From Xanthomonas arboricola pv. guizotiae (GTDB taxonomy: Bacteria > Pseudomonadota > Gammaproteobacteria > Xanthomonadales > Xanthomonadaceae): a DNA stretch of 64,000 nt. Location: assembly GCF_002940205.1 (NCBI RefSeq), contig NZ_MDSK01000005.1, positions 65,629 to 129,628 of the forward strand. The letters are read 5' to 3'. Below, in pieces: positions 11,263 through 32,361 of this stretch. The stretch's first letter is position 1; each line of letters opens with the position of its first letter. Made by a program: the position numbers and the translations under genes. The notes beneath the pieces are model-generated. The model saw only the letters and a program-made list of their open reading frames with translations, had not been told where the DNA came from and made no database searches.

Positions 11263-11301
11263 GGCAGCTATCGGTGACTATCGCCGGCCAGCAAAACGGG
11301 T

Positions 11302-11456: not shown

Positions 11457-11487
11457 AAAGCCGTCACGAACAGGAGTAACATCCTCA

Positions 11488-12890: not shown

Positions 12891-12917
12891 ATTTTGAGCA
12901 CTATGGATGCTCAAAAT
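12891..12917. promoter_or_regulatory. Inverted repeat spanning the abiEi start codon
   Basis: ATTTTGAGCA and its exact complement TGCTCAAAAT enclose the seven bases CTATGGA, which contain the ATG of abiEi. AbiEi antitoxins are known to repress their own operon by binding inverted repeats. Folded as RNA, the same element would hide the start codon. Confidence 0.7.
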
Positions 12918-14662: not shown

Positions 14663-15184
14663 TGGATGCGTCGCTGATGTCCCAGCTCAACGAGCTGCAG
14701 GACGAGAACGGCACCTAAGAAAGATGTACGCCGACGCCCAGCTCAGTGCCGACCTGCTGAAGGAGACGATGGCAAAAAAATGGTGAGGCCATCTCAACGT
14801 CGGGAGATGGCCCGAACTGCGGTCGAAGTCGGACGCACGAACATCCGGCACGCCTGCCAGAGCTTCGAGGTGAGTGAGACCTGCTATCGGTACCAGGCCG
14901 AGGCGTGGGACGAAAACGCACGGATCGCGGACTGGCTGGTGCGATTGACGACGACGTATCGCGACTGGGGCTTCGGCCTTTGCTTCCTGTACCTGCGCAA
15001 CGAGCACATCCAGCCGGGCAAGCCACAACAGAACGCCTACGTCGAACGCTACAACCGCACGGTCCGCTACGCTTGGCTGGCCCGCACCCTGTTCGACACC
15101 ATCGAGCGGGTGCAGGACAAGGCCACACGCCGGCTATGGACTTACAACCATGAGCGCCCGAACATGGCGCTAGGGATGGCCTGA
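14663..15184 (+). pseudogene. IS3-family transposase remnant with internal deletion
   Basis: The end of OrfA (MDASLMSQLNELQDEN, then after a frameshift KMYADAQLSADLLKETMAKKW) is followed by the A7 run at 14774-14780 where IS3 elements normally shift frame to OrfB. The OrfB reading carries the beginning (RREMARTAVEV through LVRLTTTYRDWGFG) fused directly to the very end (QQNAYVERYNRTVRYAWLA). The central part with the first two catalytic Asp residues is missing. The element cannot transpose by itself. It lies 10 bases after abiEii. Confidence 0.85.
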
Positions 15185-15299
15185 TCAACGCGTCGGGAAA
15201 ATGAAGTAAGCCACATCGGCCGCGCTCAAGGCACTCAGATCCTCGATTTTTTGCCGTTTTGGGCGCATTTGCGGGGTATTACCCAGATTACAGGCGCAC

Positions 15300-16277
15300 C
15301 TACCCCGCGGCGGGCATTAACTCTTTGCGCTTCAGCCACAGGTTCGACAGCGCAAACAGCGTCAGCACCTGCGAGGTGTTCTTGGCCAGGCCGCGATAGC
15401 GCACCTTGACGTAGCAAAACTGGCGCTTGATCACACGAAACGGGTGTTCCACCTTCGCGCGCAGGCTGGCCTTGGTGTGCTCCCACCGCTTGACCAACTT
15501 CAATTCGCGTTTGCTCTTGATCTGCTTCAGCTTCGAGGGCTTCTCGGCGATCAGGTAGCGCAACTTGCGCTTGCGCTTCATCTCTCCGCGCTTGTCCAGC
15601 CCGGTGTAGCCGCTGTCGCCGCTCACCGTGTCTTCCTTGCCGTGCAGCAGCTTATGTGCCTGCGTGATGTCCGCTGCGTTGGCCGCCGTGCATTCCACAT
15701 GGTGGACAAGGCCCGACTCATCGTCCACCCCAATGTGCGCTTTCATCCCGAAGAAGTACTGGTTGCCCTTCTTAGTCTGGTGCATCTCCGGATCGCGCTC
15801 GCCATCCTTGTTCTTGGTCGAACTGGGCGCAGCGATGATCGTGGCGTCCACGATCGTCCCGCCTCGCAGACTCTGCCCTTTACGCGACAGGTGCGCGTTG
15901 ACCCGGTTGAACAGCTTGCGCGCCAAATCATGCCGCTCCAGCAAATGCCGGAAGTTGAGAATCGTCGTTTCATCCGGCACCTCGTCCAGCCCGCCGATCT
16001 TCGCAAAACGGCGCATCGACACCGTGTCGTACAAGGCTTCTTCCGCCGAAGGATCGCTCAATGCATACCACTGCTGCAAAAAATGGATGCGCAGCATTGT
16101 CTCCAGCCGATACGGCTGTCGCCCCTGCTGCCCCGACTTTGGATAGTGCGGCTCGATCAGCCCCAGCAGGTCCTTCCACGGCACGACCTGATCCATCTCG
16201 GCCAAGAACACCTCACGCCGCGTCCGCTTGCGCTTGCCGTTGTACTCAGCGTCGCCGAAGGAAAGTTGCATCGTCAT
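15300..16277 (-). mobile_element. IS5-family transposase, apparently intact
   Basis: A 325-residue DDE transposase similar in length and sequence to E. coli IS5 transposase (for example RQPYRLETMLRIHFLQQWYA and RDPEMHQTKKGNQYFFGMKA). Catalytic residues can be placed at Asp in GGTIVDATIIAAP, Asp in VSGDSGYTG and Glu in KVEHPFRVIKRQF. The start is the ATG at 16277, with a second ATG two codons later. A likely right end lies near 16320-16336 (GTTCAGACCTTCC), but I cannot find a matching inverted end on the left, so the element may be truncated there. It sits just downstream of jetD, without breaking it. Confidence 0.88.
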
Positions 16278-16445
16278 CGTCCCGTTGCCTCTGTGCGATT
16301 GTCGCAGGATCATGGGGAATTGTTCAGACCTTCCCTAGGCGGCATCACGCCAGCGATGAAACTGGCGATGGCTGCATAACTCCACTTCTGAAGTCCGCTA
16401 AAAAGGGGGATTACCACCGTAGCTGGAGGCTATGTGTTTTTCCGT

Positions 16446-17480
16446 TCAGCCGTCCAAACCGCGGGTTGGTGTGGCCATGATGTCCATGGCGCCAGAATGG
16501 AGCTGCTCGGTGCCTAGAGCTTCCTGAGGCAGCCACATGCCCGAAGACCAAACTGCTTCGAGCTTTGCAGCCAGCTCTGAGCCGAGCCAAGCAACTGCCA
16601 GCCCTACAGCATAGGTTGCACACTCTGGCTTTTCACGCCGAATCCCGTTTGCAATCAACCAGCGGTACAACGGGAGCGCTGCGGAAACAGTCGGATAGCC
16701 CGGTTCAATGCAGCGGTTGAAGTCCACGGGAATTGACAAGCCTTTCGGGTCCAGGTCCCCGAAGTATTCCGCTGAAGAAGCTCCTGTTTCCAGCATCGCC
16801 TGCTGCAACGCTCGCCCAGTGAGTCTGAAGTTTTCGCCTCCACCGTAGACGACTGCGGTGTATCGTCGCGTGTCCTCGTTCCATTCTGCAAAGCTCCAGT
16901 ATGTGTTGTGATTCTCGACAACGAGTATGGATTTGCCAGGCGTATCAACCTTGCGATACGGCAGCGGTTGGGGTACCCGGAAGCAACCGATGACGGAGAG
17001 TGGGAGTCGTCCGCCAAAGAGAAAGTCCCTGGTGCACATGTTGTCGAGTCGCTTCTCGTCGCCGAAGATTTCCAGGGAACGCTCCTTGATGGGAACTGGA
17101 GAAAAAGTCCCCCGGCGTCGAAGCAGGAAGTCGTTGATGGGCTGCAACGCTGACAACTGCGATGGCCTCAATTCCGGCCAGAATCCCAGCTCCGGTGCCC
17201 AGGTCACGGTGGCGTGGGTCACGGCCACCTTGGAGCGAGGCGTGCGCTTCAAGGTGATCCAGAGCGGAAGAGGCGGCGAACCGGCCTGTTCCCAACTTCC
17301 GGAAGCCGGAAGCGAGATGGCGCCGTCAGCTTCTAGCTTCTTCAGCGCTTCCAGCAGCATCGAACTGCGTTCCGGGCTGTTCTGGACATCCGGGTACAAC
17401 GAGAAGTAGTGTCGGCGCAGCTCGTCCAGCGGCACGCGCTTGCGCGGCGACGACAGCAGGGCTTCAAGGAATGTACTCAA
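16446..17480 (-). CDS. jetD: Wadjet nuclease subunit JetD (TOPRIM)
   Basis: A 344-residue JetD protein, the DNA-cleaving subunit of the Wadjet SMC system that closes and cuts circular DNA. The TOPRIM core is visible: catalytic Glu in ILVVENHNTYWSF near residue 187 and the Asp pair in YFGDLDPKGLSIP near 238. The N-terminal domain (STFLEALLSSPRKRVPL onward) matches the DUF3322-type arm. The start is taken as TTG at 17480 because TTGA overlaps the jetC stop and GAGGAG lies about 8 bases upstream; the frame is open upstream but inside jetC. The catalytic residues are intact. Confidence 0.9.
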   Translation of the reverse strand: MSTFLEALLSSPRKRVPLDELRRHYFSLYPDVQNSPERSSMLLEALKKLEADGAISLPASGSWEQAGSPPLPLWITLKRTPRSKVAVTHATVTWAPELGFWPELRPSQLSALQPINDFLLRRRGTFSPVPIKERSLEIFGDEKRLDNMCTRDFLFGGRLPLSVIGCFRVPQPLPYRKVDTPGKSILVVENHNTYWSFAEWNEDTRRYTAVVYGGGENFRLTGRALQQAMLETGASSAEYFGDLDPKGLSIPVDFNRCIEPGYPTVSAALPLYRWLIANGIRREKPECATYAVGLAVAWLGSELAAKLEAVWSSGMWLPQEALGTEQLHSGAMDIMATPTRGLDG

Positions 17481-20400
17481 GCTGTTAACTCCTCTGGCCC
17501 GTCGTTGAGTTTCAGGTTCGCGAACTCGAGGTGCCAGCGTCTGGTTTTGCTGTTCTGTCCGGCTCGGCGCAAGCGGATGAACCGCTGGAACTCGCCGAGA
17601 GCGTTGAAATCCTGAAGCGCCGTGGCGAATATCAACTGGACGTTCATGGTTTCGGCCAGCAGCCTTTGGGCGCGCCACATGGCGGGGCTAGTGGCCTTTG
17701 CGAAGGGATTGTCGAGGATGAGTGGTCCGCCGGCGATGCGATGCACTTGCGCGTGGTTCTCAGCTCGCAGCTGGTTGATGACCAGGTACAGGAACATCGC
17801 CATGACGACGCCTTCGCCACCGGAGTTCGATACCCGCTCGACTGGTACGTACTGCTCTGTCTCCTCGATGGACATCTTCAGGACTTGCAGTCCCAGCGGA
17901 CGCCCATAAACGCGCATCACGGCATCGGCGATGAGATCCGTGCCGCGCGGCGGGAACACGTTCGTATCGGCCAATGTATCGAGGTAGGCGCTGAGGGTCT
18001 GGCGTCGTGTCTCGACCGGGATCGTGCTGAAATTTGCCCGCATCTTCAGGACTTGCTTGCCACCGACGTATGGGGCGCCCATTGGCACGGACTTGTCCTT
18101 GCTCATCGCGCGATTGAGCGTCGTGATGGCCGAGCGGACGACGGCAAGCACCTCCTCGACGCAGGCGTCGAAATCGGCTTGCATCGATTGCAGCGTCGCC
18201 TCGGTCGTCGCAATGCGGTCGTCCAGGTGTTCCAGGAGGCGCCTGGCGTCCGTGCACGCGGCGCCGAACGCGTTGGCGACCATGTGCTGCGCAACATCGG
18301 GGTCGACCTCGCGGAACGATGGCTGCGACGCAGCTGCCTTGACGAGGTCGAAGGCGGTTTGAGCCTTCTCCTGCAACTTGCTGACGCCTTGATTCTTGCC
18401 TGTGTAGTCCCTCAGCAGCGCGCTGACCTGATTGCTGGCATCGGTCTCGAGAACCAAACTGTCTGGGTCTGGCACTTCCAAGGTCACTCCTACCTGGGCA
18501 CCGATTTCCGCTGCGATGAGCATGGGGTCGGGCTTGTCTGCAAGGCCCATGCTGCTGCGCAGCAGCGCCTCGATCTTTTCGTCGGCCTGCGCTGCCTGGC
18601 GCTTTCGATCTGCCCGGTCTGCGGCCTGGTTCGCGGCTTCGTTGGCCACGCGCATCCGCTCCAGCGCCGAGACCACGCGGCCCTCGGCGTCCACCATGAG
18701 AGCAGCCAGGGCATCCAGGTCCAAAGCTTCGTGAGCGGGCTCTGCGGGTCCGAGGTTGGACTTGTTCGAGTCGAACCATTTCTTTGAATCGCCATTCACG
18801 ACTTGCAGATTCGAGGCGGCATTCACTTGCTCTGGCTTGGCCGCCTCCAGCGCTGCCTTGAAGCCAGCCAGTTCTTCTTCGTGATTAAGGTTCAGGAATG
18901 GAGCAATATCCGACATCTGCACGCCCTTGAACTCGCGGGTGAACTCTCTGGCCTTGTCCTCGCGGCGCTTTCGTGCATCGTCCAGCTTGTGCGCCAGGAG
19001 TCCGAGTCGCTCCTGCTCCTGCGCGTGGTAGGCGGCTTCGGCGTCGCGATAGATGCGGCGCAATGTCTCCACTGGCCGCGGGTTCTGCAGCAACTGCTCG
19101 TGGGCCGGATAGTCCTTGTCATAGTGGGCAATGCCCGCCCGCTCTTCGCCGGCGAGCCCGAGTTCATGGCCTGTGCTCACGCGCAAGCCGTGGTCGCTGT
19201 CGTGTTCCTTCTGTAGTTGTTCAAGGCCCACATCGGCTGCAGACTTGTTTTCCTGTGCAGTAATGATGCTTTGCACGATCTCCGCAAGTCTGCGGACGCG
19301 TTCCTCGTGGCCGGCTTCGTGTTCGCTCTGGAAACTGCGGACTGCTGACGAAGACAGGACTGCGGCCTGGCGTCGCAGATCAGCCGCCTGCGCTTGCAGC
19401 TCCAGTCCTTGAGCCTTCTCATCCAGTTCAAGCGCCTGTGATTCGAGGGACTCCGCGCGCGCTGTCGCCACGGCAGCGTCTTCTTCGAAGGCCAGCTTGT
19501 CGGCTCGTGCATTGCCAAGTTTTCCGTCGCCGAATTCCTTCGCATACGTGTCGAGTTCGTGGATCGCCTTCAGCGTCCGGTCCTGGCGCTCCCGATAGGC
19601 TGACTGGCGCTCATTTTCCTCGACGACGCGAAGTTCGAGGTTGGAGGCCAGCTTGGCCGCAGCCTCGACGTTGAAGGCCGAATCGTCCTCGGCCGCGACG
19701 ATCACGCGCTCGGCCAGTTGTGTCGCAGGCTCAAGGGTTGCCGCGGATACCACCACGGGCCGTGCAGGTCGGCGCGTCTCCCAGGCGAGTGCTCTGGCTT
19801 TGTCAAGTTCCGTGGATGCTACGGAGACGCCGAGGAAGCGGGCGGGATCGCTGGCGACGAGCGTTCGCGCTTTGGAGGCATCGGGCAGAGCGCGGGAGAT
19901 GTACGCATTGTAGGCTTGGGCCGAGCGCACACCTGCCTGTAGAAGCGTCTGGACGACGAGTGCGACATCGGCGCTGTAGCCGGCAACGCCGGTTTCATCG
20001 ATGGCCTGTCTGGTGGCATGCAACTCCGCCAGGCGCACGTCTCCCAGAGACACTTGTCTTGCCGACTCGGAGACGACCTCGCGCAGGCGTGCGGGCAAGG
20101 CCGCGGACAGCGGGTCGACGCGGTCGGATTCAATGGCGTTCAGCAGAGCGGGCAACTGCGCCAGACGCTCAAGCTCGGCTTCCCCTCGGGCGATGAATTC
20201 GCCGGCTGACTGGGCCTTGCCGGCCAACTCGGCGACACGGACGCTTTCCGTTGCGGCGGTCTGCCGACGCTCCCGCGCTTGCTTGGCGCAGTGTTGTTGA
20301 GACGCTCGATGCAGGTCGCGCTCGGCGGTCGCGGTTGCAGCCTCGGTATCGAGGCGTTCGAGCGCTTCGGCGGTGGTTTCCTCTGGCGCCCGAAACGTTT

Positions 20401-21883
20401 TGTCTGCTTGCAATGCGTCACGCCGCCGGGCATACGCCTCCTCGGCCGCTTGAAGCTTCGAGCGTTCTCCCACCAGTCGGAGCTCGTCGGCTTCGGCTTG
20501 ATCTCGTTTCTTGCGAAGGGTGGTCCGTGCCTCCTCACGCGCGGCAGCCCGCTGATCGAGCGTTTGGAGTGCCGCCTTCAGTCGCTGTTCTTCGTTGAAT
20601 AGCGCTCGGCGCAGGAGTGCCCCTTGAATCTCGGCGTGGTCCTTTGTCGGCTTGAGATTTGCGCGTTCGGCTTCGGCTAGTGCGTCAAGCTCTTTGATTT
20701 CTTCGTCGACACCGATGATTTCTTTCTGCAGTCGTGCCGCTCGAATGAGCTGCTCGTCCCGCTCCAGGTCTCTTACCCGGGCATCGGCGGCCTCCTTGCG
20801 CGCTTTGGCTTGCGCACTGCGTTTCTGATGCCAGGCCCAGGTGACCGTCGCTTGCTCCTTAGTGTGGAGCGTCGAATCCGCAAGCGCGGCCGAAGCCAGT
20901 TGTCGCTGGAGCCGCTCGAATTCCGCTTCCTGAGCGTGGTCGAAGCGCAAGGAGATGGCGCGGGCCTGCAGAGCCTGGACCATCTGAGCGCCACGGACCA
21001 GCATCGAGCGCTGCGCAGCCAGTGTCTCGAGATACAGCTGGGCAGCGTCGGCGAACGCGTTCAGTGCCGCCCGGAATCTGGTCAGTTCATCGCGGCGCTT
21101 CTGGAACTGCGGCTTGCGGCGATGCTTTTCGCACACCGCGACCACCAGCTTGCGTGCTTCGTCGGCTTTCGTCGTGTCGCTGGTCAGGTGCAGGAACTTG
21201 CGCAGGAACTCGCCTTCCGTCTTGAAATCGAGGAAACCTGTGTCGAATCCGCCTTCCTGGGCCGAGAAGTTGACCTGCATGCGCAGCATATCCAGGTCGA
21301 TGAGACGCTCGTCTCTCAAGTGCCGTTGCCACTCGGCCTGGCGGTTGTGGCTGATGAAAACGTCGCCCGGGTATTTTTTCTGCCGTGCGTACAGCCAACG
21401 CGAAAACTCCTGCATGGAGGTCGGCGTGGGCTGCGCCAGACCGGGGGCGGGGATATCCGTCAGGCCGAGGTCGGTGTGCTCCTCGAATGAGAAGAACATG
21501 CGGTCGACTTCAGGTGGCTCCGTGTGCGACCTCACTGCGACCGCCTGACCGGTCACCAGGCGGTAGGGTTCTGCTCCCGCCGTTCTGGACGGCATGAGCC
21601 ATTCAACGATGATGAATCCAGGCGTGCCATCATGAGTGAAGTACTGAGAGAAGGTGTTGTGCTTGCTCTGGATGTGCTTGAGAAACTTCTCTTGAGCGGT
21701 CTCGAAGCACGAGAACACGAGGCCGATGAGTGTGGTCTTGCCGCCGCCGTTTTCCAGATTGATGAGCGTGTCGGTCGGGTAGCCGCTGTCCGGGTCGGTC
21801 AGATCGAAGGTCATCCCTTCATACCATGCGGTGCGAAAGCCGCAGTTGCCCAGGTGGAGGCGGGAAATCTTCTGCATGATCAC
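17477..21883 (-). CDS. jetC: Wadjet SMC-like ATPase JetC
   Basis: A 1468-residue SMC/MukB-type motor. The Walker A NLENGGGKTTL is near residues 44-54; a very long coiled coil (alanine, glutamate, arginine and lysine rich, about residues 280-1250) with a central hinge follows; the signature SNSGGEGVVMAMF near 1350 and Walker B GGPLILDNPFAKA near 1386 close the ATPase head. JetC extrudes DNA loops together with JetA and JetB and presents the DNA to JetD. It is longer than the roughly 1100-residue JetC of the best studied type I systems. GTG at 21883 overlaps the jetB stop (GTGA); ATG at 21877 is an alternative start. Confidence 0.93.
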   Translation of the reverse strand: MIMQKISRLHLGNCGFRTAWYEGMTFDLTDPDSGYPTDTLINLENGGGKTTLIGLVFSCFETAQEKFLKHIQSKHNTFSQYFTHDGTPGFIIVEWLMPSRTAGAEPYRLVTGQAVAVRSHTEPPEVDRMFFSFEEHTDLGLTDIPAPGLAQPTPTSMQEFSRWLYARQKKYPGDVFISHNRQAEWQRHLRDERLIDLDMLRMQVNFSAQEGGFDTGFLDFKTEGEFLRKFLHLTSDTTKADEARKLVVAVCEKHRRKPQFQKRRDELTRFRAALNAFADAAQLYLETLAAQRSMLVRGAQMVQALQARAISLRFDHAQEAEFERLQRQLASAALADSTLHTKEQATVTWAWHQKRSAQAKARKEAADARVRDLERDEQLIRAARLQKEIIGVDEEIKELDALAEAERANLKPTKDHAEIQGALLRRALFNEEQRLKAALQTLDQRAAAREEARTTLRKKRDQAEADELRLVGERSKLQAAEEAYARRRDALQADKTFRAPEETTAEALERLDTEAATATAERDLHRASQQHCAKQARERRQTAATESVRVAELAGKAQSAGEFIARGEAELERLAQLPALLNAIESDRVDPLSAALPARLREVVSESARQVSLGDVRLAELHATRQAIDETGVAGYSADVALVVQTLLQAGVRSAQAYNAYISRALPDASKARTLVASDPARFLGVSVASTELDKARALAWETRRPARPVVVSAATLEPATQLAERVIVAAEDDSAFNVEAAAKLASNLELRVVEENERQSAYRERQDRTLKAIHELDTYAKEFGDGKLGNARADKLAFEEDAAVATARAESLESQALELDEKAQGLELQAQAADLRRQAAVLSSSAVRSFQSEHEAGHEERVRRLAEIVQSIITAQENKSAADVGLEQLQKEHDSDHGLRVSTGHELGLAGEERAGIAHYDKDYPAHEQLLQNPRPVETLRRIYRDAEAAYHAQEQERLGLLAHKLDDARKRREDKAREFTREFKGVQMSDIAPFLNLNHEEELAGFKAALEAAKPEQVNAASNLQVVNGDSKKWFDSNKSNLGPAEPAHEALDLDALAALMVDAEGRVVSALERMRVANEAANQAADRADRKRQAAQADEKIEALLRSSMGLADKPDPMLIAAEIGAQVGVTLEVPDPDSLVLETDASNQVSALLRDYTGKNQGVSKLQEKAQTAFDLVKAAASQPSFREVDPDVAQHMVANAFGAACTDARRLLEHLDDRIATTEATLQSMQADFDACVEEVLAVVRSAITTLNRAMSKDKSVPMGAPYVGGKQVLKMRANFSTIPVETRRQTLSAYLDTLADTNVFPPRGTDLIADAVMRVYGRPLGLQVLKMSIEETEQYVPVERVSNSGGEGVVMAMFLYLVINQLRAENHAQVHRIAGGPLILDNPFAKATSPAMWRAQRLLAETMNVQLIFATALQDFNALGEFQRFIRLRRAGQNSKTRRWHLEFANLKLNDGPEELTA

Positions 21884-22611
21884 ACCGCCTTGCGCTCGGT
21901 CGTAGCCAGTTGCGCCATCTCGTAGAGTCGCCGCAACGCCAGCTCTCGCAGTTGCACCCGCAGCCGGAAGGTGGGCGTATAGGTCGCCGCCGCTTCGTCC
22001 TCCGCGTCGCGGTCGAGCCGGACAAGGCCGTTCTGCGCCATATGGTTCAGCGCAATCTTGACGACGCCGACGACCGAGGCGTGCGACGCCCGCTGACCGG
22101 ACGGGATGGCGACGGGCAGTGCTGAAATCGTCTCCCAGCCGGGCGCGAGTTCAAATGGCACGTCCGGCGGGAGGTCGGAGGTCTCCTTCAGGCGTCGCGC
22201 CAGGGCATGAAGCGTGTCGCGGCAGGTGGCCACCGACGCCGGGGGCGGGGAGTAGTTGTCGTCGTCCAGTCCATCGGTCGTCGGGAAGAAGACCGCGGCG
22301 ATGGCGATGTGGGCCAGCACGAGGGCCGCCTTCTGATCCGGCGTCATGCCGCTGCGGATATCCGTGATACGCACCGCGAAGCGGCTGTCCTTGGAGGCTG
22401 GAACCACGATGAGACCGCGCTGCTCGCTCAAGTCGAGAATTTGCAGTTCCATCCCGGCCGCGACATCTTCGACGTACTGTCTGAACGTCGGGTCCGCTCT
22501 GCACAGGGCCAGCAGTTCGCGGTATTCCGCGTCGTTGATGGGTGACAGCGTCGTGTGTAGCGCCTTGTACGTCAGTCGCGCGGCGTTGCGCACGGTAGGT
22601 TCTGCATTCAT
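21880..22611 (-). CDS. jetB: Wadjet kite subunit JetB
   Basis: A 243-residue protein in the position and size range of JetB, the MukE/MksE-like kite dimer that bridges the kleisin and the motor (DUF4194 group). It is predicted to be mostly helical with a winged-helix-like C-terminal part (VVGVVKIALNHMAQNGLVRL). The ATG at 22611 overlaps the jetA stop as ATGA. The reading frame continues upstream to 23004, but that part overlaps jetA and is low-complexity arginine-rich shadow sequence. Assignment rests mainly on position between jetA and jetC. Confidence 0.85.
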   Translation of the reverse strand: MNAEPTVRNAARLTYKALHTTLSPINDAEYRELLALCRADPTFRQYVEDVAAGMELQILDLSEQRGLIVVPASKDSRFAVRITDIRSGMTPDQKAALVLAHIAIAAVFFPTTDGLDDDNYSPPPASVATCRDTLHALARRLKETSDLPPDVPFELAPGWETISALPVAIPSGQRASHASVVGVVKIALNHMAQNGLVRLDRDAEDEAAATYTPTFRLRVQLRELALRRLYEMAQLATTERKAV

Positions 22612-24152
22612 GCTGAATCTTCCTGAGGAACAAATGCGAGGGCGCTGCCCTGAGCGATGTCGAGGTGGAACGTCTCTCCCGTGAGTTCGACGCTCACGTT
22701 CTTGAACTGGTTCTCGGACCGTGCGAACGAGCGGAAAAGGATCAGCACGAGGCACCGCCGCATCGTTCTGTCCAGGCCTTCGTCTTCGGCGGCATCCAGC
22801 AACTGGTCGATGCGCAGCCGCTGGCCGGTGGCGAACTTCCCAGTCAGCCAGTCGTTGGCGCGCTGCACGAGGTCCTTTGGAAACTGGTCGGGCGGAGGCT
22901 CGAATTTCTCGATCGAGCCTGGGTCGGTCTCGATCTCCGTGTCCTCCCCGCGTTGCTCTAGCAGCAGGGTGAACACCGAGTTCATGTCGTACACCTTCGG
23001 CCACACGGGTGGGTACAGCGCACTGATGAAGACGTCCGCTTCTGCCGAGAGTACTCGGGTGGGAAGGTTGACGAGTTGCGGAAGCAGTTGCGGCTCAAGG
23101 TCCGGGAGACCGGTGGGCCTGCGTGCGCGAAAGACTGCGCGCTGTGCTTCGATGAAACGCTCGGGCGCCACGTTGATGTCGGTGACGAGCTGCAGCCGAA
23201 TGAGGCTGGCGCTACGGATGGTTTCCTTCAGCTGCACCAGGCTCGTGCGCGTTTTCGGCTCGTCGGCACCGAGCAGGGCTTCACCAACGGCTTCTTCCAT
23301 CCGCGCGTCTTCCGCTTGGCGCTGGCGCACGTGTGCTCGTGCCTCGTCCAGCCGGCTTGCCATGTCGCGGCTCCAGTTGACGCTGCCGGGCGCCCGGTAA
23401 GCTTGATAGAGCTGGTCACGGATCAGCTGGCGGTATTCGATGGAGTACTTCCGGGCTCGCCGTGCGATCTCGACGGCGGCCTCGAACCGGCCGCGGCGCA
23501 CCAGCAGGTCGAGCATCTTCTCCATCAGCTCCTGCGAATCCTCCGGCGCGAGGTCGAGCATTCCCAGGTAGACGAGGTAGCCCTCGGCGGTGGGACGGTA
23601 GCGGTAGACGTCATCGGCGTCTGGTTCGAAGCGGACCAGTCGATATCGGATCGATCTGGCGGTGCCGGCAGATGCGTCGAAGAACTCCGCGCTGAACTCC
23701 CTGTGGTTGTTGGCTTTGTTGTCGAGCGCGTCAAGGACGACATCCGCGATGCGGCGTGCCTGAGGTGATGTGAGGCCAGGCTTCATGCGGCTGGCGATGT
23801 ATCCCAGGTGAGCCACGACCTCGACCGATGTACTTCCGCTGGAAATGGTCGTCGCTTCCATCATCAGGTCGAGGGCGGACAACGCGAGGTAGTGGGTGTC
23901 GATACCGTGGAACAGTGTCCTGTCCGCATTGCCTTCATCACCAAGCATCGTCTTGTAGCGCTCGAGCTGGAAGATGGGGCGCAGGAGTAGCAGGTTGCGC
24001 TGCTGACGCGACAGGTCAAGCAGGTCTGGGGCGCCGCCATCCAATCGCAGGCCATCCTCGGGGGACGCCCGCGGTCCAGGCTCCGCCGGAACTATCCTGC
24101 GCGACGCAAGGCCCCGTTCCGAGTCCAATGGTGGTTCCTCCTGGTACGGCAT
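22608..24152 (-). CDS. jetA: Wadjet kleisin subunit JetA
   Basis: A 514-residue protein of the JetA (DUF5716, MukF/MksF-like kleisin) type. After a disordered first 45 residues there is a helical N-terminal domain (LLLRPIFQLERYKTML ...), a winged-helix part around YRPTAEGYLVYLGMLD, a long helical middle and a C-terminal domain with RCLVLILFRSFARSE. The kleisin links the two JetC heads. The ATG is preceded by AGGAAGGG and lies 24 bases after the helicase stop, so these genes are almost certainly on one transcript. It is the first of the four jet genes. Confidence 0.88.
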   Translation of the reverse strand: MPYQEEPPLDSERGLASRRIVPAEPGPRASPEDGLRLDGGAPDLLDLSRQQRNLLLLRPIFQLERYKTMLGDEGNADRTLFHGIDTHYLALSALDLMMEATTISSGSTSVEVVAHLGYIASRMKPGLTSPQARRIADVVLDALDNKANNHREFSAEFFDASAGTARSIRYRLVRFEPDADDVYRYRPTAEGYLVYLGMLDLAPEDSQELMEKMLDLLVRRGRFEAAVEIARRARKYSIEYRQLIRDQLYQAYRAPGSVNWSRDMASRLDEARAHVRQRQAEDARMEEAVGEALLGADEPKTRTSLVQLKETIRSASLIRLQLVTDINVAPERFIEAQRAVFRARRPTGLPDLEPQLLPQLVNLPTRVLSAEADVFISALYPPVWPKVYDMNSVFTLLLEQRGEDTEIETDPGSIEKFEPPPDQFPKDLVQRANDWLTGKFATGQRLRIDQLLDAAEDEGLDRTMRRCLVLILFRSFARSENQFKNVSVELTGETFHLDIAQGSALAFVPQEDSA

Positions 24153-24176
24153 GGTTCCCTTCCTGCGAACGTCTGC

Positions 24177-27100
24177 CTAATGTCCTGTCGAATGCACGGC
24201 TTGTTCCAAGCGTACTCGGCTGGAGGCCCGCAGCTGCTGGAGGCCCAGTCTCCGCGCCATTGCGTAATACACAGCTTCGTCTTTCGTTCCTTGTGCGATC
24301 ACAGCACGGGCCAGCGAAGCCAGTTCCTGCAGGCTGATCTCGTCGACCGCCCGCACGCTGTCTTCGTCGGCAGGCGCCCGGAAAGGCGGCTCCGTTGCAG
24401 GATCGAGATGCTCGGGCCAGTAGAACGTGCCGATTTCTTCATCCGTCGTCCGATGGCGGGCTCGAGCAAGTTGGAACACGCGCTCGCGGATCCGCCCGCC
24501 TGTGCGTACCCAGCCGTGGGCACGGGCGATGCGGCGAGCCAGCAGGGCGTCGAGCACGGGGCCTTCATGATCGATGACGTGGGCGATCATGGCCAATAGG
24601 GTGTCGTTGTAATCGTCGTCGAAAAAGCGATCGGGATTGGCGCCGGCGACCGCTTCGGCCGGATGGGTGACCCGATAGAGCGAGGCTTCGGGTGGCGTTG
24701 TTTCTGCCTTACCGGCATGGGCTGGTGCTGCGGAGACCTGGCGAGCAAAGACTTCCTCTACTTGCTGCGATGGAGCTGTCGTCGGGACTTCTGGTGCGAC
24801 CGGACCCGCATCCTGGATTGGGGCCGCCGTTTCCTCGTCTGGCTTCGTTACTGACGCCATAGCTTGCGCGATGGCCGCCTGCGCCAGGCGCTCGGCCTCA
24901 GCTTCGCGCTCGGCCTGTTCGGAGCGCCGCTTGCGCTGGGCCGTGAGCACGGCTTGCAGCCGGGCGTCCAGCCTGTCGAGCGTGCCGGCCGGATCGATCC
25001 ACCAGTCGGTGGACCAGACCCGCACGATGTCCCATCCCAGGCCGCGCAGAACCTGCTCGCGCAGCTTGTCGCGGTCGCGTGCAGTGGCGCTGCGGTGGTA
25101 AGTGGCGCCATCGCATTCCACACCGGCCAGGTAGCGTCCGGGGGCGTCGGGATCGACGATTCCGAGGTCGACACGGAACGAAGAGGCGCCGATCTGCGGC
25201 TGGACGTGCCAGCCGCGCCGGGCCAGGGCGGTGGCCACGGCCTGTTCAAACGGACTGTCGAAGGCCCCCAGGCTGCCGCGGTTGGCTTCTGCCAGCGCAC
25301 GGGCGCCGCGTTCGGCGAATTCCAGGAAGTGTTTGAGATCGCGCACGCCGATGGCTTGCGTTCGCGCCAAATCCATCTGCTCGGCGCGGAAGCTGGCGAA
25401 TACGCGCAGTTCGTGACGCGCGCGGGTGATGGCCACGTTGAGCCGGCGCTCGCCGCCCTGGCGGTTGAGCGGACCGAAGTTCATGGCCAGTTGGCCTGCG
25501 GGGTCCGGGCCGTAGGTGATGGAGAAATAGATGAGATCGCGTTCGTCGCCCTGCACGCTCTCTAGGTTCTTGACGAACAGCGGCTCCAGTTCGCTCTCGG
25601 CGAAATAGGGCTCCAGCCTTGGATCCTGGCGGCGTGCCTCGTCGAGCAGGTCCTCGATCAGCTTCTGCTGCTCGGCATTGAAGGTGACCACGCCGATCGT
25701 CAGTCCGCTTTCGCGGAAGCCAGGCGCGGTCAGGCGCGCCACCACGTCGGCGACCAGCGCCTTCGCTTCGGCCGGGTTGGTCCGTGTACCGCCTTTCTGG
25801 TAGGTGCCTGAGACCGGCTGCAAGCTGACCGCGCGATCGTTGGTGACGGGGGAAGGAAAGGTGACCAGTCCGCCGTCGTAGTAGGCATGGTTGGAGAACG
25901 CGATCAGGCTTTCATGTCGGGAACGGTAGTGCCAGTTTAGATTCCGTGTCGGCAGATTGGCGCCGATGCACTCGTCGAGGATGCTCTCCAGGTCGGCCTC
26001 GACGTCTTCGTCGTCCAGCCCTGATTCGGCGCGGTCGAAGAAGGAGGTCGGCGGCAACTGTTTGGGGTCGCCGACCATGACGACCTGGCGGCCGCGGGCG
26101 ATGGCACCGATCGCATCCCAGACCGGGATCTGCGAGGCTTCGTCGAAGATCACCAGGTCGAACGCGTTGGCCCCGGCCTGGAGGTACTGGGCGATGGACA
26201 GCGGGCTCATCAGCAGGCAGGGCGTGAGCTTGGTCAGCGCCTCCGGAATCTGGGCCATCAGTTCGCGCAAGGGCAGGTGCGCGCGCTTTTTGCCCATCTC
26301 GTGCCGCAGCAGCCCCCATTCGGAGTTGCGGCTGACGTTGTCCTGCGAGGGCAGGTCGGCGCACAGGCGGGCGCGCAGCCAGTCCCGGGTCAGGGCGGTG
26401 AAGCGCTCATCGAGCTCGCGGAAATCGCGGATGCGCTGTTCGTGCTCGGCGCTGACGAAACCGCGAATGACCGGCTCATGATCGACCACGGCGTTGAGCC
26501 ACCAGCGCGCGTAGTTGGTCTCGAAAGTTCGGCGTGCTTGGTCCGGGCCGACCTGGCCTTGCTCGATGCCCAGGACCAGCGTGGTCAGCCCGAGTGCCAG
26601 CGCCTCGTCGCGCGCCTGGCGCCATGCGCACCAACTGCGCAGACTGTGTTCGGCGCGCACGATGGACTGGCTTTGCTCGATCAGCCCTTCGAGTGACATG
26701 GACTGCCACTGCGTCTGGGCGGCCTCGGCAAAATTTCCGGTGGTCGCGAGTGCCTCGCGCCGGGGTAGCAGCTGTTCCCATTTCTCCACGTATCGAGCGC
26801 CGGCCAGCGCGATTCGACCACCGGGCTCCAGCAATGCATTGGCATCGCCCAATAGCGTATGCAGCGGTGCCTTGCAGGCAGAGATCTGTTCGGGCGTGGT
26901 GGCCAGGCGGGCCAGCACGGCAGCCAGATCCTCTCGGAGCTGGCAGGCCTGCTCGAGGTCATCCAGGTGGGTGGCGAGACCTTTCCACAGGCCTGCGGTG
27001 GACTCGCGCAAGTCGTCCAGGGCGGCCAGTGCTTGTTCCGTATCGGCCCGCTGGCGAAGCGTCTGGTGGTCACGTGTCAGCGTGGGGCCGCAAGCGCCTT

Positions 27101-30100
27101 CCTCAACCAAGGTGTGGGCATCCAATGCACCTAGCTGGGCATGGCTGCGCCAGTCGCTCAGGAAGTCGAGTGCGGCACGCAGGCGGTCGACTGGTGTGGA
27201 GTGGCCTGCCCATAGGCCGTCGGTCGCCGTTTCCAGCGATGCCTGTGCCGCAATGTCCTGGTCGAGCTGGCGCAGTCGCCGTGCCCGTTGCAGATCGGCT
27301 TGCAGGGCGGCCCCGCATTGGCCGTTGGCGATGGCATCGAAGCCGTCGTCCTCCCAGGGCTGGCCTTCGCGTACGGCGGCCAGGGCGGTTTGCCAGCGCA
27401 GGGCCGTGCGTATCTTGTCCTCTTGTGTCTCCAGTCCTGCCCAGACGTCCGCACACTGCTGGCCTGGAACGATGGCCCGGATCTGCTGGCGCAAGGCGCG
27501 GATGGCCTTCCAATGCTGCAGATCGTTGGCGACGTCGGGCTGCGCGCCGCCTGTGATAGCGCTGGACAGTTGTGCTGTGACTTTGCGTTTACCCAGCCAG
27601 GACTTGGGCCAGAACGTCTGCTCGGCCTGTTCCCACATTTGCTGCAACTGGGCGACGTCGAGCTGTTCGATCGCCTTGCCGTAGGGAGCCGATATTGCCG
27701 AGTGGTGCTCGCCGAGTTGGGCCAGCAGGCCCAGCCCTTGGTTGAGCTGCACGGTGATGCGTATCGGCCAGGGCTCGCCGAGTTCTGCGCGAGTCTGCCG
27801 GTGCTCGGCGAGCAGGGCCAGCCCGTCGGCGCAGGCGGTCATGACAGAAGCGGGCCACGGCGTGGACAGCTGTATGTTCAGTTCCGCATGGCGGCGCACC
27901 AGTGCCGCGCCTTCCTGAAGGCGTTGGCTCAGGCTGCGTGCGTCGGGCCGCAGGACAAAGCGCCAATCATGTCCCGCCGCCAGAGGCAGGCGTTGGGCCA
28001 GGAGCAGCAGCGCTTCGCAGGTTTCGGGCGTCAACGTGGGAGAGGGCAGGCCGATGGCCTGGACAAACGCCTGGGCGGATTCGATCGTCGCCTGGACGGC
28101 GGGAAGCACATCACGCGCAGTGGCGATCAGTTGCTGCTGCCAGGTGGGCGACCAGTCTCCCTGGCCGACCAGGGCCAGGGGGTGCTGCGCCAGCGCGGCA
28201 TGGCCAATGGCTTGTGCATTGACTTCCAGGCGGTCCACGGCACTGCGCAACTGTTCGATGCCAGCATGATCGTGCTGATCGGCCGAGGGCCAGGCCAAGT
28301 GAAGTGTCGGGACGTCGTGTCCCGCGCTGACGGTGCCGATGGCATCGAACAGGCTCAAGCCGTTGCGGCGACGCTGGTGAAGGCGTTCCACATAGATGTT
28401 CAGCGCATCGCGCAGGCGCTTGAGTTTCTCGGCCTCGGCCCGCCATTGCTCGGCATCGGCCTGGCCACTGCTGGACCAAGCCGATTGCAACTGCGCCAGC
28501 ACGTCGAGCTTGCGGGCTTTGCTCGAGTGCAGCTCCAGGCAGAACTCGCCCAGGCCGATTTCACGCAGGCGCCGGTAGACGACGTCCAGCGCCGCGATTT
28601 TCTCGGATACGAAGAGAACGCGTCGGCCCTGTGCCAGGGATTGTGCGATCAGGTTGGCGATGGTCTGGCTCTTGCCCGTCCCCGGTGGACCGATCAGGAC
28701 GAAGTCCTTGCCCTGCGAGGCGGCCAGCACGGCTGACAACTGCGAGGAATCCGCCGGCAAGGGGCAGAATACCTGCCTGGGGTCGAAGTGCTGGTCCAGT
28801 TCGCGCACTTGCGGGAACGGAGCGCCCAGTGGATAGGCATCGCGCGGGGTGTCCAGCAGGTGGCGCACGACCGGGTTCTCGCGTAACTGTTCGCTGTGCT
28901 CGGCCAGGTCTTTCCACATCAGATACTTGGCGAACGAGAACATGGACAACACCACGTCCTCGGTCACTTCCCAGCCCTTGATGTCCTTGATGGCGTGGCC
29001 GACAGCCTTCCATACCGCAGCGACGTCCAGGCCGGCATCGTCCCGCGGCAGTTCGCCTTCGAGCGTGCCCAGGCTCAGTTCGAAGTCCTGGCGCAGCATC
29101 TCGATCAAGGTCGGATTGAAGCGGGGCTCGTCGTCATGCAGGCTGAGCGTGAAGCCCGAGCGGGCGCTCTTGCGCTGCAGGCTGACCGGCACCAGGATCA
29201 AGGGCGCGCGGTAGCGCTGACCGTCACGGTCTTCGCGGGTCCAGGACAGGAAGCCCAGGGCGAGATAAAGCGTGTTGGCACCGCCTTCCTGCAAAGTCGT
29301 GCGAGCGCTGCGAAACAAATCGACCAGGCGTGAATCGAGTTCGATCTCGGGAACGCCAACGAAAACCTCGCCTTTCTGCAGGGCTTCCAGCGCGTGCGCA
29401 CGGCGCACGTTCTCGCGTTCGCGGGCTTCGTAGATGGCCTGATCGCGCGGATCGGCACCGTCCATCAGGTCCGGACGCGGGCGCAGCTTCAGGGACTGGC
29501 CGCTGGCCAGCAGGTCTTCCAGCGCGCCAGGGTCCGGTGCTTCCAGCTTGAGTGCTTTCTTGCCGGCCTTGAAGTTGAGCAGGTTGTTGCGAAGCGACAG
29601 ATCCAGCAGCTTGCGTTGCCAGCGAAGCAGCCGGTCCTTGGGATCGAGCTGGCTGGCGTCTTCTGTATTGGCTGGCGCACTGTCGGGCAGGTCAGGCGCG
29701 TCTTCGATCACTGATACGGCGGGCGAAGACGGCGGCGCTTCATTGTCTGACACCGCAGCAACTGCCGCCTCCGCACTGGCCAATGGCTTGATGCGCTGCA
29801 GCCGCGCCCGGCGGATGTCCACAGCCAGGCGGAATCCCGCATCCTGAGATTCATCAACCTGCTGGGCACCGCGTTCGGTGGCATAGCTGAAAGGGACGGT
29901 GGGGCGCTGGGTGATCAGGGTGGTCTCGAACAGCACCAGTTCCTTGAGCCTGAGGCGCTTGCGCAAAGCGGTCACGTCGTCGACGACCGTGTTGGAAAAC
30001 TCCTCCGGTTGCAGCCAGACCCCTGCAAAGGCATGGCCCTCTGTGAAGACCAACAGGGGGTTCAACCCTGCCTGCTCGAGTGCGGCGCAGAACAGCAACG

Positions 30101-30809
30101 TGAGGTCGAAACACGTCCCCAGCCCCGAGCTTTCGATCTGGCTGGGACTGCGCACCTTCTGGCCCGACTGCTCGAAGCTGGCCGGGGGCAGTGCATAGTC
30201 CAACTGCATGCCAGCCGTGGCCCCCCAGAGGGCCGAAGCCAGTTCCCAGGCGCGTTTGGCGCCGCCGGTGTAGCCATCCAGTGCGGGGTTGCGATCGTTC
30301 TGCCGCAACACCTCGGCGGTTCTCTTGAGCAGCCGATCCACGGCCGGATCGTTGGGTTGGACGAAGGCGGCGACCAAGTCCGGCAGATGCGAGATGCCGC
30401 CCCATTGGTTGCGTGGCAGCAGCTCCAGATGGCTGTCGCACTGCGCGAGGGCCGGGGTGGAAGCATCCGCGCCCACGGAGCGCAAGGCCAGCGAGACCGT
30501 GGCCGTCTCGGCCTCGGTCAGCCGCGCCAGCAATCCGCCGTCCAGATTCATGTCCAGGTTGCGGATCGGATAGCGGGAGCCCGCGGCCAGCGCGTCGATC
30601 CGCCAACGGCGCGGCTTCAGAAAGGGCGGATCGGACGTCAGGACCAACTCGACCTGCTCATGCTTCTGATCGGTCTCGTTGACCAGCCAGAGATCCCGCA
30701 ACAGCGGGACCGCATTCTGAAAGTCCGCCAAGTTCAATTTGGCGATCAGGGTAACGTCGATTTTCAATTCGGCAGCGGTGGCCGAATCTTCCAGTTGTGT
30801 GTCGTCCAT
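24177..30809 (-). CDS. Giant SF1 helicase-nuclease (DUF4011, AAA_11/12, endonuclease, DUF3320) with transglutaminase-like N-terminus
   Basis: A 2210-residue protein. From the N-terminus: a beta-rich start; a transglutaminase-like segment with Cys in SSGLGTCFDLTLLFCAAL near 233 and His in FTEGHAFAGVWL near 259; the DUF4011 start at RKLLDLSLRNNLLNFKAGKK near 395; Walker A GPPGTGKSQT near 706; DEAS in FDEASQIPVWDAIG near 1556; the AAA_12 block SVQGDERDLIYFSITYG with NVAITRARHELRVF near 1760; a Vsr/DUF559-like nuclease with VECDGATYHRS near 1900; and DUF3320 at about 2050-2210. The parts imply unwinding plus cutting of nucleic acid. As first gene of the jetABCD operon it is probably a functional partner of Wadjet. 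Confidence 0.88.
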   Translation of the reverse strand: MDDTQLEDSATAAELKIDVTLIAKLNLADFQNAVPLLRDLWLVNETDQKHEQVELVLTSDPPFLKPRRWRIDALAAGSRYPIRNLDMNLDGGLLARLTEAETATVSLALRSVGADASTPALAQCDSHLELLPRNQWGGISHLPDLVAAFVQPNDPAVDRLLKRTAEVLRQNDRNPALDGYTGGAKRAWELASALWGATAGMQLDYALPPASFEQSGQKVRSPSQIESSGLGTCFDLTLLFCAALEQAGLNPLLVFTEGHAFAGVWLQPEEFSNTVVDDVTALRKRLRLKELVLFETTLITQRPTVPFSYATERGAQQVDESQDAGFRLAVDIRRARLQRIKPLASAEAAVAAVSDNEAPPSSPAVSVIEDAPDLPDSAPANTEDASQLDPKDRLLRWQRKLLDLSLRNNLLNFKAGKKALKLEAPDPGALEDLLASGQSLKLRPRPDLMDGADPRDQAIYEARERENVRRAHALEALQKGEVFVGVPEIELDSRLVDLFRSARTTLQEGGANTLYLALGFLSWTREDRDGQRYRAPLILVPVSLQRKSARSGFTLSLHDDEPRFNPTLIEMLRQDFELSLGTLEGELPRDDAGLDVAAVWKAVGHAIKDIKGWEVTEDVVLSMFSFAKYLMWKDLAEHSEQLRENPVVRHLLDTPRDAYPLGAPFPQVRELDQHFDPRQVFCPLPADSSQLSAVLAASQGKDFVLIGPPGTGKSQTIANLIAQSLAQGRRVLFVSEKIAALDVVYRRLREIGLGEFCLELHSSKARKLDVLAQLQSAWSSSGQADAEQWRAEAEKLKRLRDALNIYVERLHQRRRNGLSLFDAIGTVSAGHDVPTLHLAWPSADQHDHAGIEQLRSAVDRLEVNAQAIGHAALAQHPLALVGQGDWSPTWQQQLIATARDVLPAVQATIESAQAFVQAIGLPSPTLTPETCEALLLLAQRLPLAAGHDWRFVLRPDARSLSQRLQEGAALVRRHAELNIQLSTPWPASVMTACADGLALLAEHRQTRAELGEPWPIRITVQLNQGLGLLAQLGEHHSAISAPYGKAIEQLDVAQLQQMWEQAEQTFWPKSWLGKRKVTAQLSSAITGGAQPDVANDLQHWKAIRALRQQIRAIVPGQQCADVWAGLETQEDKIRTALRWQTALAAVREGQPWEDDGFDAIANGQCGAALQADLQRARRLRQLDQDIAAQASLETATDGLWAGHSTPVDRLRAALDFLSDWRSHAQLGALDAHTLVEEGACGPTLTRDHQTLRQRADTEQALAALDDLRESTAGLWKGLATHLDDLEQACQLREDLAAVLARLATTPEQISACKAPLHTLLGDANALLEPGGRIALAGARYVEKWEQLLPRREALATTGNFAEAAQTQWQSMSLEGLIEQSQSIVRAEHSLRSWCAWRQARDEALALGLTTLVLGIEQGQVGPDQARRTFETNYARWWLNAVVDHEPVIRGFVSAEHEQRIRDFRELDERFTALTRDWLRARLCADLPSQDNVSRNSEWGLLRHEMGKKRAHLPLRELMAQIPEALTKLTPCLLMSPLSIAQYLQAGANAFDLVIFDEASQIPVWDAIGAIARGRQVVMVGDPKQLPPTSFFDRAESGLDDEDVEADLESILDECIGANLPTRNLNWHYRSRHESLIAFSNHAYYDGGLVTFPSPVTNDRAVSLQPVSGTYQKGGTRTNPAEAKALVADVVARLTAPGFRESGLTIGVVTFNAEQQKLIEDLLDEARRQDPRLEPYFAESELEPLFVKNLESVQGDERDLIYFSITYGPDPAGQLAMNFGPLNRQGGERRLNVAITRARHELRVFASFRAEQMDLARTQAIGVRDLKHFLEFAERGARALAEANRGSLGAFDSPFEQAVATALARRGWHVQPQIGASSFRVDLGIVDPDAPGRYLAGVECDGATYHRSATARDRDKLREQVLRGLGWDIVRVWSTDWWIDPAGTLDRLDARLQAVLTAQRKRRSEQAEREAEAERLAQAAIAQAMASVTKPDEETAAPIQDAGPVAPEVPTTAPSQQVEEVFARQVSAAPAHAGKAETTPPEASLYRVTHPAEAVAGANPDRFFDDDYNDTLLAMIAHVIDHEGPVLDALLARRIARAHGWVRTGGRIRERVFQLARARHRTTDEEIGTFYWPEHLDPATEPPFRAPADEDSVRAVDEISLQELASLARAVIAQGTKDEAVYYAMARRLGLQQLRASSRVRLEQAVHSTGH

Positions 30810-31020: not shown

Positions 31021-31512
31021 ATGAACCTCATCGATCTCGGCCATACCGTGCGGACCCGGCGCACTGAGCTGGGCCTGTCCCAGGCGCAGTTGGCGCACTT
31101 GAGCGGACTGTCTCGGCAGACCCTGGTCGGCCTGGAAAATGGCACGCTGAGCGATCTTGGCGTCAACCGTGTGGGGCAGGTGACGGCGGTACTGGGCTTG
31201 GACAGTCCCAAGCTCGATACGCAAGCGAGGCGTAAGAAGCGCGGCCTGTGGATGGCGGCCAAGACGGTTAGCGTCAGCTATGCACGTGAACTGGCGCCCG
31301 AGGCGCTGGAGCAGGCCCTGGCGAGTGGCGAAGTGCCTGCTCCATTTGCCCCTCACCTGACACATTTACTCGACGAGGCGCCTGTGCCCATCGTCGTGAT
31401 GGCCGTGGAAGAGGCGGCCTCGCGTGCACACCTGCCGCCAAGGCAGGTCTGGCGCAACGTGGCGAAGCTGGCTGGGTCCTTGTCCGTGCACCGTCGGGCG
31501 CTGTGGGCATGA
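31021..31512 (+). CDS. XRE-family antitoxin of a nucleotidyltransferase toxin
   Basis: A 163-residue protein with a clear N-terminal helix-turn-helix: VRTRRTELGLSQAQLAHLSG, then SRQTLVGLENGTLSDLGV. The C-terminal half (from about residue 75) is unrelated to common repressors and probably contacts the toxin. Its stop overlaps the toxin start (ATGA), the classic arrangement of a toxin-antitoxin operon with the antitoxin first. It probably represses its own promoter in the gap shared with the helicase operon and could therefore also influence Wadjet expression. Confidence 0.85.
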   Translation: MNLIDLGHTVRTRRTELGLSQAQLAHLSGLSRQTLVGLENGTLSDLGVNRVGQVTAVLGLDSPKLDTQARRKKRGLWMAAKTVSVSYARELAPEALEQALASGEVPAPFAPHLTHLLDEAPVPIVVMAVEEAASRAHLPPRQVWRNVAKLAGSLSVHRRALWA

Positions 31513-32165
31513 AGCCCGTGGCACTGCCCGGCGGTCCATGGGAGAAGCTTTTCCCGCGGGCGTTGGCGCTGATCGACGAGATCAGCCAGTACGGCGGCAT
31601 CACGGACCCGTTCTGGACCCTGGGCGGTGGAACCGTGCTTATGTTCCGTCACTGCCATCGGCTGAGCAAGGATATCGACATTTTCGTGCCCGATCCGCAG
31701 TACCTCGGCTTTGTCACGCCTCGTTTGAGCGACTCGGCGGCGGACTTGACGCAGGACTACACTGAGCAGCCAGGCGCCTTCGTCAAACTGCAGTTCGAGG
31801 AGGGCGAGGTCGACTTCGTTGCCGCTCCCAATCTGCTGAACGACGCCTGGGACACCTGGGATATCGGCGGTCGCGCTGTGAAGGTGGAGACAGCCGCCGA
31901 AATCATTGCCAAGAAGATGTACCACCGTGGCGATCGGGTTACGGCGCGTGATCTTTTCGACCTGGCGCTCGTGATCGAGCGCGAGCCTCAGCAGCTTCTG
32001 GCGGCGACGCCGTTTCTCCTACGCCATCGGGAGGCGTTTCTGTCCCAGATCCAGGCGCCGCATGCCGGCCTGCGCGCCGCGTTCAACGCCATCGCCATGC
32101 TGGATTACACGCCCAGCTTCGATCATTGCGTCGCCGTGGTCGGGGATTTCCTGGGTGAACTGTAA
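31509..32165 (+). CDS. AbiEii/MenT-like nucleotidyltransferase toxin
   Basis: A 218-residue protein of the same toxin superfamily as the AbiEii at 13.7 kb but a different branch. The active-site pattern is LGGGTVLMFRHCHRLSKDID near residues 39-58, with GG followed by DID. Later, AEIIAKKMYHRGDRVTARD is the conserved AbiEii-type second block. It is translationally coupled to the XRE protein and is the last gene before the island's right end, where a toxin-antitoxin pair would penalise loss of the element. Confidence 0.85.
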   Translation: MKPVALPGGPWEKLFPRALALIDEISQYGGITDPFWTLGGGTVLMFRHCHRLSKDIDIFVPDPQYLGFVTPRLSDSAADLTQDYTEQPGAFVKLQFEEGEVDFVAAPNLLNDAWDTWDIGGRAVKVETAAEIIAKKMYHRGDRVTARDLFDLALVIEREPQQLLAATPFLLRHREAFLSQIQAPHAGLRAAFNAIAMLDYTPSFDHCVAVVGDFLGEL

Positions 32166-32283
32166 TCCCTTAGCGTGTGGTCGTTCCCGGTCGTAGTGGA
32201 GCGCGCTAAATCGACAATAAGCCCGGAAGTGTCGACGCCGCGCAGGTCGCTCCATAACCCGCACCAGCATTAAACGCGTGTTT

Positions 32284-32304
32284 TGACGGTAGATCGCGAC
32301 GGTA
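32284..32304 (+). repeat. Right-end integrase arm repeats
   Basis: TGACGGTA at 32284-32291 and CGACGGTA at 32297-32304, in the same orientation as the four copies before the integrase 21 kb away. They mark the probable right arm of the island. Confidence 0.6.
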
Positions 32305-32316
32305 TATATTTGTCGA

Positions 32317-32361
32317 TCACTAGAAATCCCTCACTAGAAATCCCTTAAATCACAGGGATTT
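32317..32361. repeat. attR: Tandem 14-bp repeat and inverted repeat, candidate right attachment site
   Basis: TCACTAGAAATCCC occurs twice head to tail (32317-32330, 32331-32344). The second copy runs into an inverted repeat, AAATCCCT (32338-32345) and AGGGATTT (32354-32361). AGAAATCCCTCAC at 32322-32334 resembles the candidate left core at 11250. The tandem duplication may result from an integration or an imprecise excision event. Confidence 0.45.

Follow-up and report, generated by a model that had tools for sequence, protein, structure and literature searches.

Five closely packed genes occupy positions 16446-30809 on the minus strand of a 64,000-nucleotide (nt) stretch of the Xanthomonas arboricola pv. 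guizotiae genome, hereafter the window (63.6% G+C; host genome 4.93 Mb): a giant helicase-nuclease gene of the family named ProA and, behind it, jetA, jetB, jetC and jetD of a type III Wadjet system. Our main finding is that in a close relative the same site behind the same helicase holds a Wadjet set of another type, and that the helicase is found with this second type in another genus. Coordinates are collected in Table 1.

Table 1. Features of the five-gene run, followed by those around it, in window coordinates.
Feature	Position	Strand	Remarks
proA-like helicase-nuclease gene	24177..30809	-	2210 aa
Intergenic gap, helicase stop to jetA start, 24 nt	24153..24176	-	Exchange junction here and in the last ~30 helicase codons
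jetA, type III (kleisin)	22608..24152	-	514 aa; PADLOC JetA3 797 bits
jetB, type III (likely KITE)	21880..22611	-	243 aa; ATGA overlap with jetA
jetC, type III (SMC-like ATPase)	17477..21883	-	1468 aa; GTGA overlap with jetB; PADLOC JetC3 2192 bits
jetD, type III (TOPRIM nuclease)	16446..17480	-	344 aa; TTGA overlap with jetC; PADLOC JetD3 375 bits, Pfam JetD_C
Right border of exchanged stretch: end of likely remnant of an insertion sequence (IS) of the IS3 family	16335..16418	.	Common to G400 and G423
Likely IS5-like insertion (transposase 15300-16313)	15175..16334	-	In the window allele; G400 and G423 lack it at this point
AbiEi/AbiEii genes	12648-14652		Same block as the integrase, common to G400
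Tyrosine integrase of the island	11488..12747	+	Block including the AbiEi/AbiEii genes, common to G400
Divergent helix-turn-helix (HTH) gene	31021..31512	+	5' part in the stretch common to G423; whole gene in the stretch common to G1263
AbiEii-type nucleotidyltransferase toxin gene	31503..32165	+	
Attachment-site (att)-like repeat, role inferred	32210..32393	+	Relatives bracket the G1263 unit; one follows jetD2 in G400

The helicase and the Wadjet genes of the window

An earlier note on this stretch had placed the end of the helicase gene 24 bases before jetA and had described ATGA, GTGA and TTGA overlaps along jetA-B-C-D. These coordinates and gaps are confirmed exactly, and its claim of a complete jetABCD set also holds: the type III A, B, C and D genes follow in order on one strand, JetB by a weak match. 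Because of the tight spacing, the five genes are likely to form a single transcription unit; a promoter scan of 16300-31200 returned zero sigma-70-like sites anywhere and is hence uninformative on transcript structure.

The helicase combines DUF4011, a split superfamily 1 (SF1) core matched by AAA_11 and AAA_12, a Vsr-type nuclease of the MTES_1575 family and a DUF3320 winged helix-turn-helix (wHTH), with the Walker A motif GPPGTGKS at residue 707 and DEAS at 1556. It scores 2447 bits with the NCBIfam model NF058533, 'anti-phage protein ProA', where the cut-off is 1500, so that the equivalog threshold is passed, as it is by all four relatives scored (L043, L045, L086 and L103); with the PADLOC model PDC-S37 it reaches 1290 bits. 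Like Hhe, it is a DUF4011 helicase, but its 881 bits with the Hhe anti-phage protein model lie below the cut-off of 2000. Protection against phage by this protein is predicted from its family membership; our literature search found no publication behind the name ProA.

Towards the N-terminus, C233, H259 and D277 are invariant, and this region probably consists of a beta-sandwich and a transglutaminase-like part that contains the three residues. A structural model of residues 1-390 (predicted local distance difference test, pLDDT, 71) gave weak matches, transglutaminases and a putative protease among them, none of which reached an expectation value (E) of 0.001; the best, at 0.0014, was a carbohydrate-binding module. 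PMC3710099 describes giant MTES_1575 proteins in which HEPN, transglutaminase, SF1 helicase, Vsr nuclease and a wHTH overlapping DUF3320 are combined, and reads them as likely to act in restriction without modification. The window protein shares helicase, Vsr-type nuclease and wHTH with ProA, PDC-S37 and the giants as described there, whereas the HEPN domain of the latter is unmatched in it. What sets it apart from ProA as annotated is that Wadjet genes follow it in one run; on plasmids, some distant members of the family adjoin Mre11/Rad50-like genes.

Wadjet is described as a four-gene machine that linearises small circles, an activity known mostly from type I systems and treated in reviews (PMC10586767, PMC12904381). 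The window set resembles type III Wadjet (PADLOC JetA3-D3) in its A-B-C-D order, its overlapping starts and its SMC-like, kleisin, likely KITE and TOPRIM subunits, and restriction of circular plasmids by it is predicted; it differs from other type III loci in being preceded by a ProA gene. JetB, in its true frame, gave a weak PADLOC match of 23 bits, and one JetB3 model is matched by 14 of the 17 JetBs of the subfamily, the window's included. A Foldseek search with a JetB model (pLDDT 63) gave nothing at E 0.001, the best value being 0.06; in its weak matches, chains of MukE-MukF/MukBEF and JetABC, which we take to be KITE subunits, rank first and third to sixth (E 0.06-0.46), the second being an unrelated acyltransferase.

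JetC carries GGGKTT (Walker A), NSGGEG (signature) and LILDNPF (Walker B), the last with asparagine where the usual catalytic glutamate is expected. The same asparagine is found in all 17 readable type III JetCs (window, L004-L008, L010-L019 and L047; the sequence of L009 ends before the motif and is left out), while the type II JetC of G400, a genome of the same genus, has the glutamate. Judged by these sequences, the asparagine is a family trait of type III. A sequence search of the PDB found no relative of JetC. JetD has the glutamate of VVEN together with GDLD, as do all five relatives examined (IVEN in one). The earlier note had all active-site motifs present: this is correct for Walker A and DEAS of the helicase, for Walker A and signature of JetC and for the glutamate and GDLD of JetD, and needs correcting for Walker B of JetC, with its asparagine.

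Exchange of the genes behind the helicase

A helicase at least 93% identical to that of the window was found in 3 of 35 genomes of the genus (the window's own, G400 and G423); ten more hold only a relative of about 44% identity. The G423 helicase matches, at 100% identity after rounding, a protein cluster that bears the label X. campestris pv. trichodesmae. G400 has the same island at the same site, 94-96% identical to the window on the helicase side (core genome, HTH-AbiEii genes and helicase) and 90-92% on the integrase/AbiE side. The slot between the end of the helicase gene and the likely IS3 remnant is filled by type III jetABCD in the window and by type II jetABCD in G400 (JetA2 674, JetB2 473, JetC2 1510 and JetD2 472 bits), the latter beginning 1 nt after the stop codon of a helicase 94% identical to the window's. 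Type II Wadjet (JetA2-D2; DUF2397/2398/3323/2399) thus has the position in G400 that the type III set has in the window, and it follows the helicase in G1263 too, but the window set belongs to other PADLOC and Pfam families. The slot of G423 holds a DUF6119/TIGR04141 gene, 23 nt behind the helicase.

At the level of the family, 3 of the 149 genomes drawn match at E <= 1e-250: the window's, G1301 (57% identity) and G1263, which is of another genus. G1263 carries a G400-like helicase with its type II unit, 15.9 kb at 93.5% identity, in a different setting and between two direct repeats that are 82% identical to each other. On a Comamonas plasmid, a gene without family match lies 139 nt behind an 82% identical helicase. 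Three of the five helicases of at least 82% identity precede Wadjet, of two types; the pairing with type II is seen in two genera belonging to a single family, that with type III in the window only. Comparison of these sequences indicates that the linkage of helicase and Wadjet is not random. The association proposed in the earlier note is supported in this wider form, which takes in a complete type II set 1 nt behind the helicase in two genera and Mre11/Rad50-like genes beside more distant relatives, and is not specific to type III, where none of 16 other loci has it.

Full-length identity among four Xanthomonadaceae helicases is 93-94%, the last stretch diverging most. Over the last ~60 residues, the two helicases linked to type II are 81% identical, those linked to type II and those with other partners 57-68%, and those with other partners 67-72% among themselves. 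Of the 40 helicase clusters listed (P0121-P0160), three are truncated ahead of the tail; among the others, many have a tail similar to one of the three Xanthomonadaceae types, and several have one unlike all of them. This pattern would fit a docking tail; it would equally fit a recombination junction, which explains the divergence as well because the tail adjoins the junction of the exchange.

At E <= 1e-200, relatives of the helicase are present in 5 of the 369 genomes searched in the class, the window's own counted; at E <= 1e-300 they are present in 10 of 399 genomes from the order to which the Burkholderia locus L008 belongs. Among plasmids, 330 records match the helicase, and 19 of the 40 listed were chosen by hand and read, the 21 rows left out being mostly near-copies from Klebsiella, Raoultella and Enterobacter. 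An Mre11-like gene lies directly downstream of the helicase in 7 of the 19 loci (L103, L104, L108, L109, L111, L116 and, as a fragment, L107), and is followed by a Rad50-like gene in L103, L104, L108, L109, L111 and L116 (partial, beside IS21, in L111). An Mre11/Rad50-like pair stands upstream within 1.1 kb in five (L101, L113, L114, L115 and L118), and neither gene was found in seven (L045, L046, L102, L105, L110, L112 and L117). In total, 12 of the 19 adjoin Mre11/Rad50-like genes or their remnants, counts that are not independent since the plasmids are inter-related. Pfam supports the Mre11 and Rad50 families in L101, L103, L104 and L116; in the other loci they were recognised by translated similarity and record annotation. 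Away from plasmids, L123 has Mre11/Rad50-like genes at a distance of 3.7-6.4 kb, on the other strand. In L089, a Dsr2-like gene (7909-11697, plus strand; 450 bits, below the cut-off of 1400) lies 367 nt behind the ProA relative.

Cooperation or stacking

We tentatively favour the view that the locus is a mobile unit built on ProA, in which partners of the SMC/Rad50 class can be exchanged, and that helicase and partner cooperate. JetABC would extrude the DNA of an invader and JetD would cut it if circular; ProA would load on the ends made by this cut, unwind and degrade, leaving the cut plasmid beyond rescue, and on its own would act against linear phage DNA. The Rad50/Mre11-like pairs beside distant relatives of ProA would play the same role of a machine plus a first cutter, and the C-terminal tail of ProA, most variable between alleles, is the predicted docking side. 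In favour of cooperation are the gene order with its overlaps, the ProA score above the cut-off, the replacement of type III by type II at one site with the junction at the 3' end of the helicase gene, the DUF6119 allele at 23 nt, the presence of the helicase-type II unit in a second genus between related direct repeats, the Mre11/Rad50 neighbours on plasmids and the closer likeness of the two type II-linked tails. Both kinds of part, ProA helicase and Wadjet, were already known; neither a ProA-Wadjet operon nor the exchange of Wadjet types at one site behind ProA was found in print, in a literature search that was not exhaustive and took in few subscription journals. If a helicase-nuclease of an anti-phage family does belong to a Wadjet operon in which the types can be swapped, both the fate of DNA after the JetD cut and the cooperation of Wadjet with an anti-phage enzyme become directly testable, and recurrence with Mre11/Rad50-like genes would make an 'SMC-class motor plus ProA' a general design.

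A number of results weigh against cooperation. An alignment of JetA with genome contigs yielded 346 stretches that matched the pattern, among which 16 type III loci were confirmed, their JetA being 41-87% identical to the window's. The helicase lies directly upstream of jetA in none of the 16, nor in a type III locus on a Polaromonas plasmid. The control count proposed in the earlier note, that of helicases upstream of jet loci, is thus 0 of 16 for type III; its suggestion of the helicase as a fifth component is not supported for this type, and because of this count we regard the helicase as no regular part of type III systems. In the helicase's place directly upstream, at least 6 of the 16 have a divergent gene for a WYL regulator (L009, L010, L012, L013, L014 and L018), and in L016 and on the Polaromonas plasmid the gene there, at a distance of 61 nt, encodes a type I restriction subunit. 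Furthermore, 12 of the 14 type III jet genomes searched have no ProA match at E <= 1e-50, the other two having a relative on another contig, and for this reason type III Wadjet appears to manage without ProA.

The same is seen from the side of type II and of the helicase. Type II loci in G427 and on a Cupriavidus plasmid have no helicase directly upstream; those of G421, at a contig end, and G404, a fragment, are uninformative on this point, and the lack of any JetA2 match in 300 Burkholderiales genomes is no evidence of absence, given that the positive control was silent and that Burkholderiales JetA2 proteins are listed. Two of the five closest helicases have something other than Wadjet behind them. 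Type II or III jet genes, the types searched for, are beside none of 15 chromosomal or viral relatives of 42-63% identity (L069, L083, L084, L086-L089, L091-L093, L095, L098-L100 and L123; L069 and L088 offer only ~1 kb of downstream sequence, and L085, L090, L094, L096 and L097, which end at or near the helicase, were dropped). On viral contigs the helicase query found three loci; the two examined are without type II/III jet genes, and the third ends at the match. A code in the tail that specifies the partner is not claimed, the longest contigs of JetA clusters differing in length from those of helicases of the same tail type. Finally, linkage within a mobile island can arise without cooperation.

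Nearly as likely as cooperation, then, is the stacking of two defences that do not cooperate, in which a stand-alone anti-phage ProA and a stand-alone anti-plasmid Wadjet would share a promoter and a mobile island, with a hot spot for cargo behind proA. That the parts occur alone, in the 16 type III loci and the 15 chromosomal or viral ones, is as expected from stacking, and so are the integrase, IS remnants, AbiE genes and direct repeats around the unit and the occurrence elsewhere of another defence gene, the Dsr2-like one, behind a ProA relative. Stacking is less easily reconciled with gaps of 1, 23 and 24 nt, with a helicase-type II unit kept together across two genera, and with SMC/Rad50-class neighbours in 12 of the 19 plasmid loci read, inter-related as these plasmids are. 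A bolder form of cooperation makes ProA a universal helicase-nuclease adaptor, on whose variable C-terminal tail Wadjet II, Wadjet III and Mre11/Rad50-like machines, as DNA-sensing motors, would dock interchangeably to give an anti-plasmid and anti-phage DNA shredder; this we consider unlikely.

It is much less probable still that the DUF4011 gene is a bystander, the conserved flank of a defence hot spot beside which Wadjet landed. PMC10250203 does report that core defense hotspot 1 (cDHS1) of P. aeruginosa is bounded on its right by a conserved DUF4011 gene, but here the helicase is not a core gene (at least 93% identity in 3 of 35 genus genomes), another genus has it together with type II Wadjet, and it stands first in its run, 1-24 nt ahead of the next gene. 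For the same reasons, together with the exchange at one site, a chance neighbour at a core site is disfavoured. As for the helicase being a fifth subunit dedicated to type III Wadjet, the adjacency that speaks for this is seen in the window only, and we give this reading the least credence of all: the 0 of 16 rejects a type III-specific subunit, the Polaromonas plasmid agrees, and the same helicase stands with type II and with DUF6119.

Surroundings of the unit and of other type III loci

AbiE-type toxin-antitoxin genes flank the helicase-Wadjet unit on both sides (12648-14652 and 31021-32165). The att-like repeat, ~100-190 nt long, has further copies in G1263 (858226-858391 and 876054-876225) and G400 (1097446-1097549), and may be the attachment site of a mobile unit. 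At 8391-9767 on the plus strand of the window, a C-5 cytosine methylase match lies in a frame without a picked coding signal, perhaps a decayed gene.

JetA3 turned up once among 398 genomes of the phylum and once among 61 relatives, in each case as the window's own copy; scans of viral contigs with JetA and with JetA2 found nothing, and E. coli genomes gave no near match. The only one of the 16 other type III loci with a helicase relative in its available flanks is L012, where it is on the other strand: at 3742-8700 (minus strand), separated by a single WYL gene from the type III jet operon of this Thauera locus, lies a 1652-residue helicase with an MTES_1575 nuclease and no DUF4011 match. Beside the Pelomonas type III jet locus L004, at 1587-9431 (minus strand), a 2614-residue protein combines a DnaG-type zinc finger, a primase core and Toprim; it also has a reverse-transcriptase match that falls slightly short of the Pfam cut-off.

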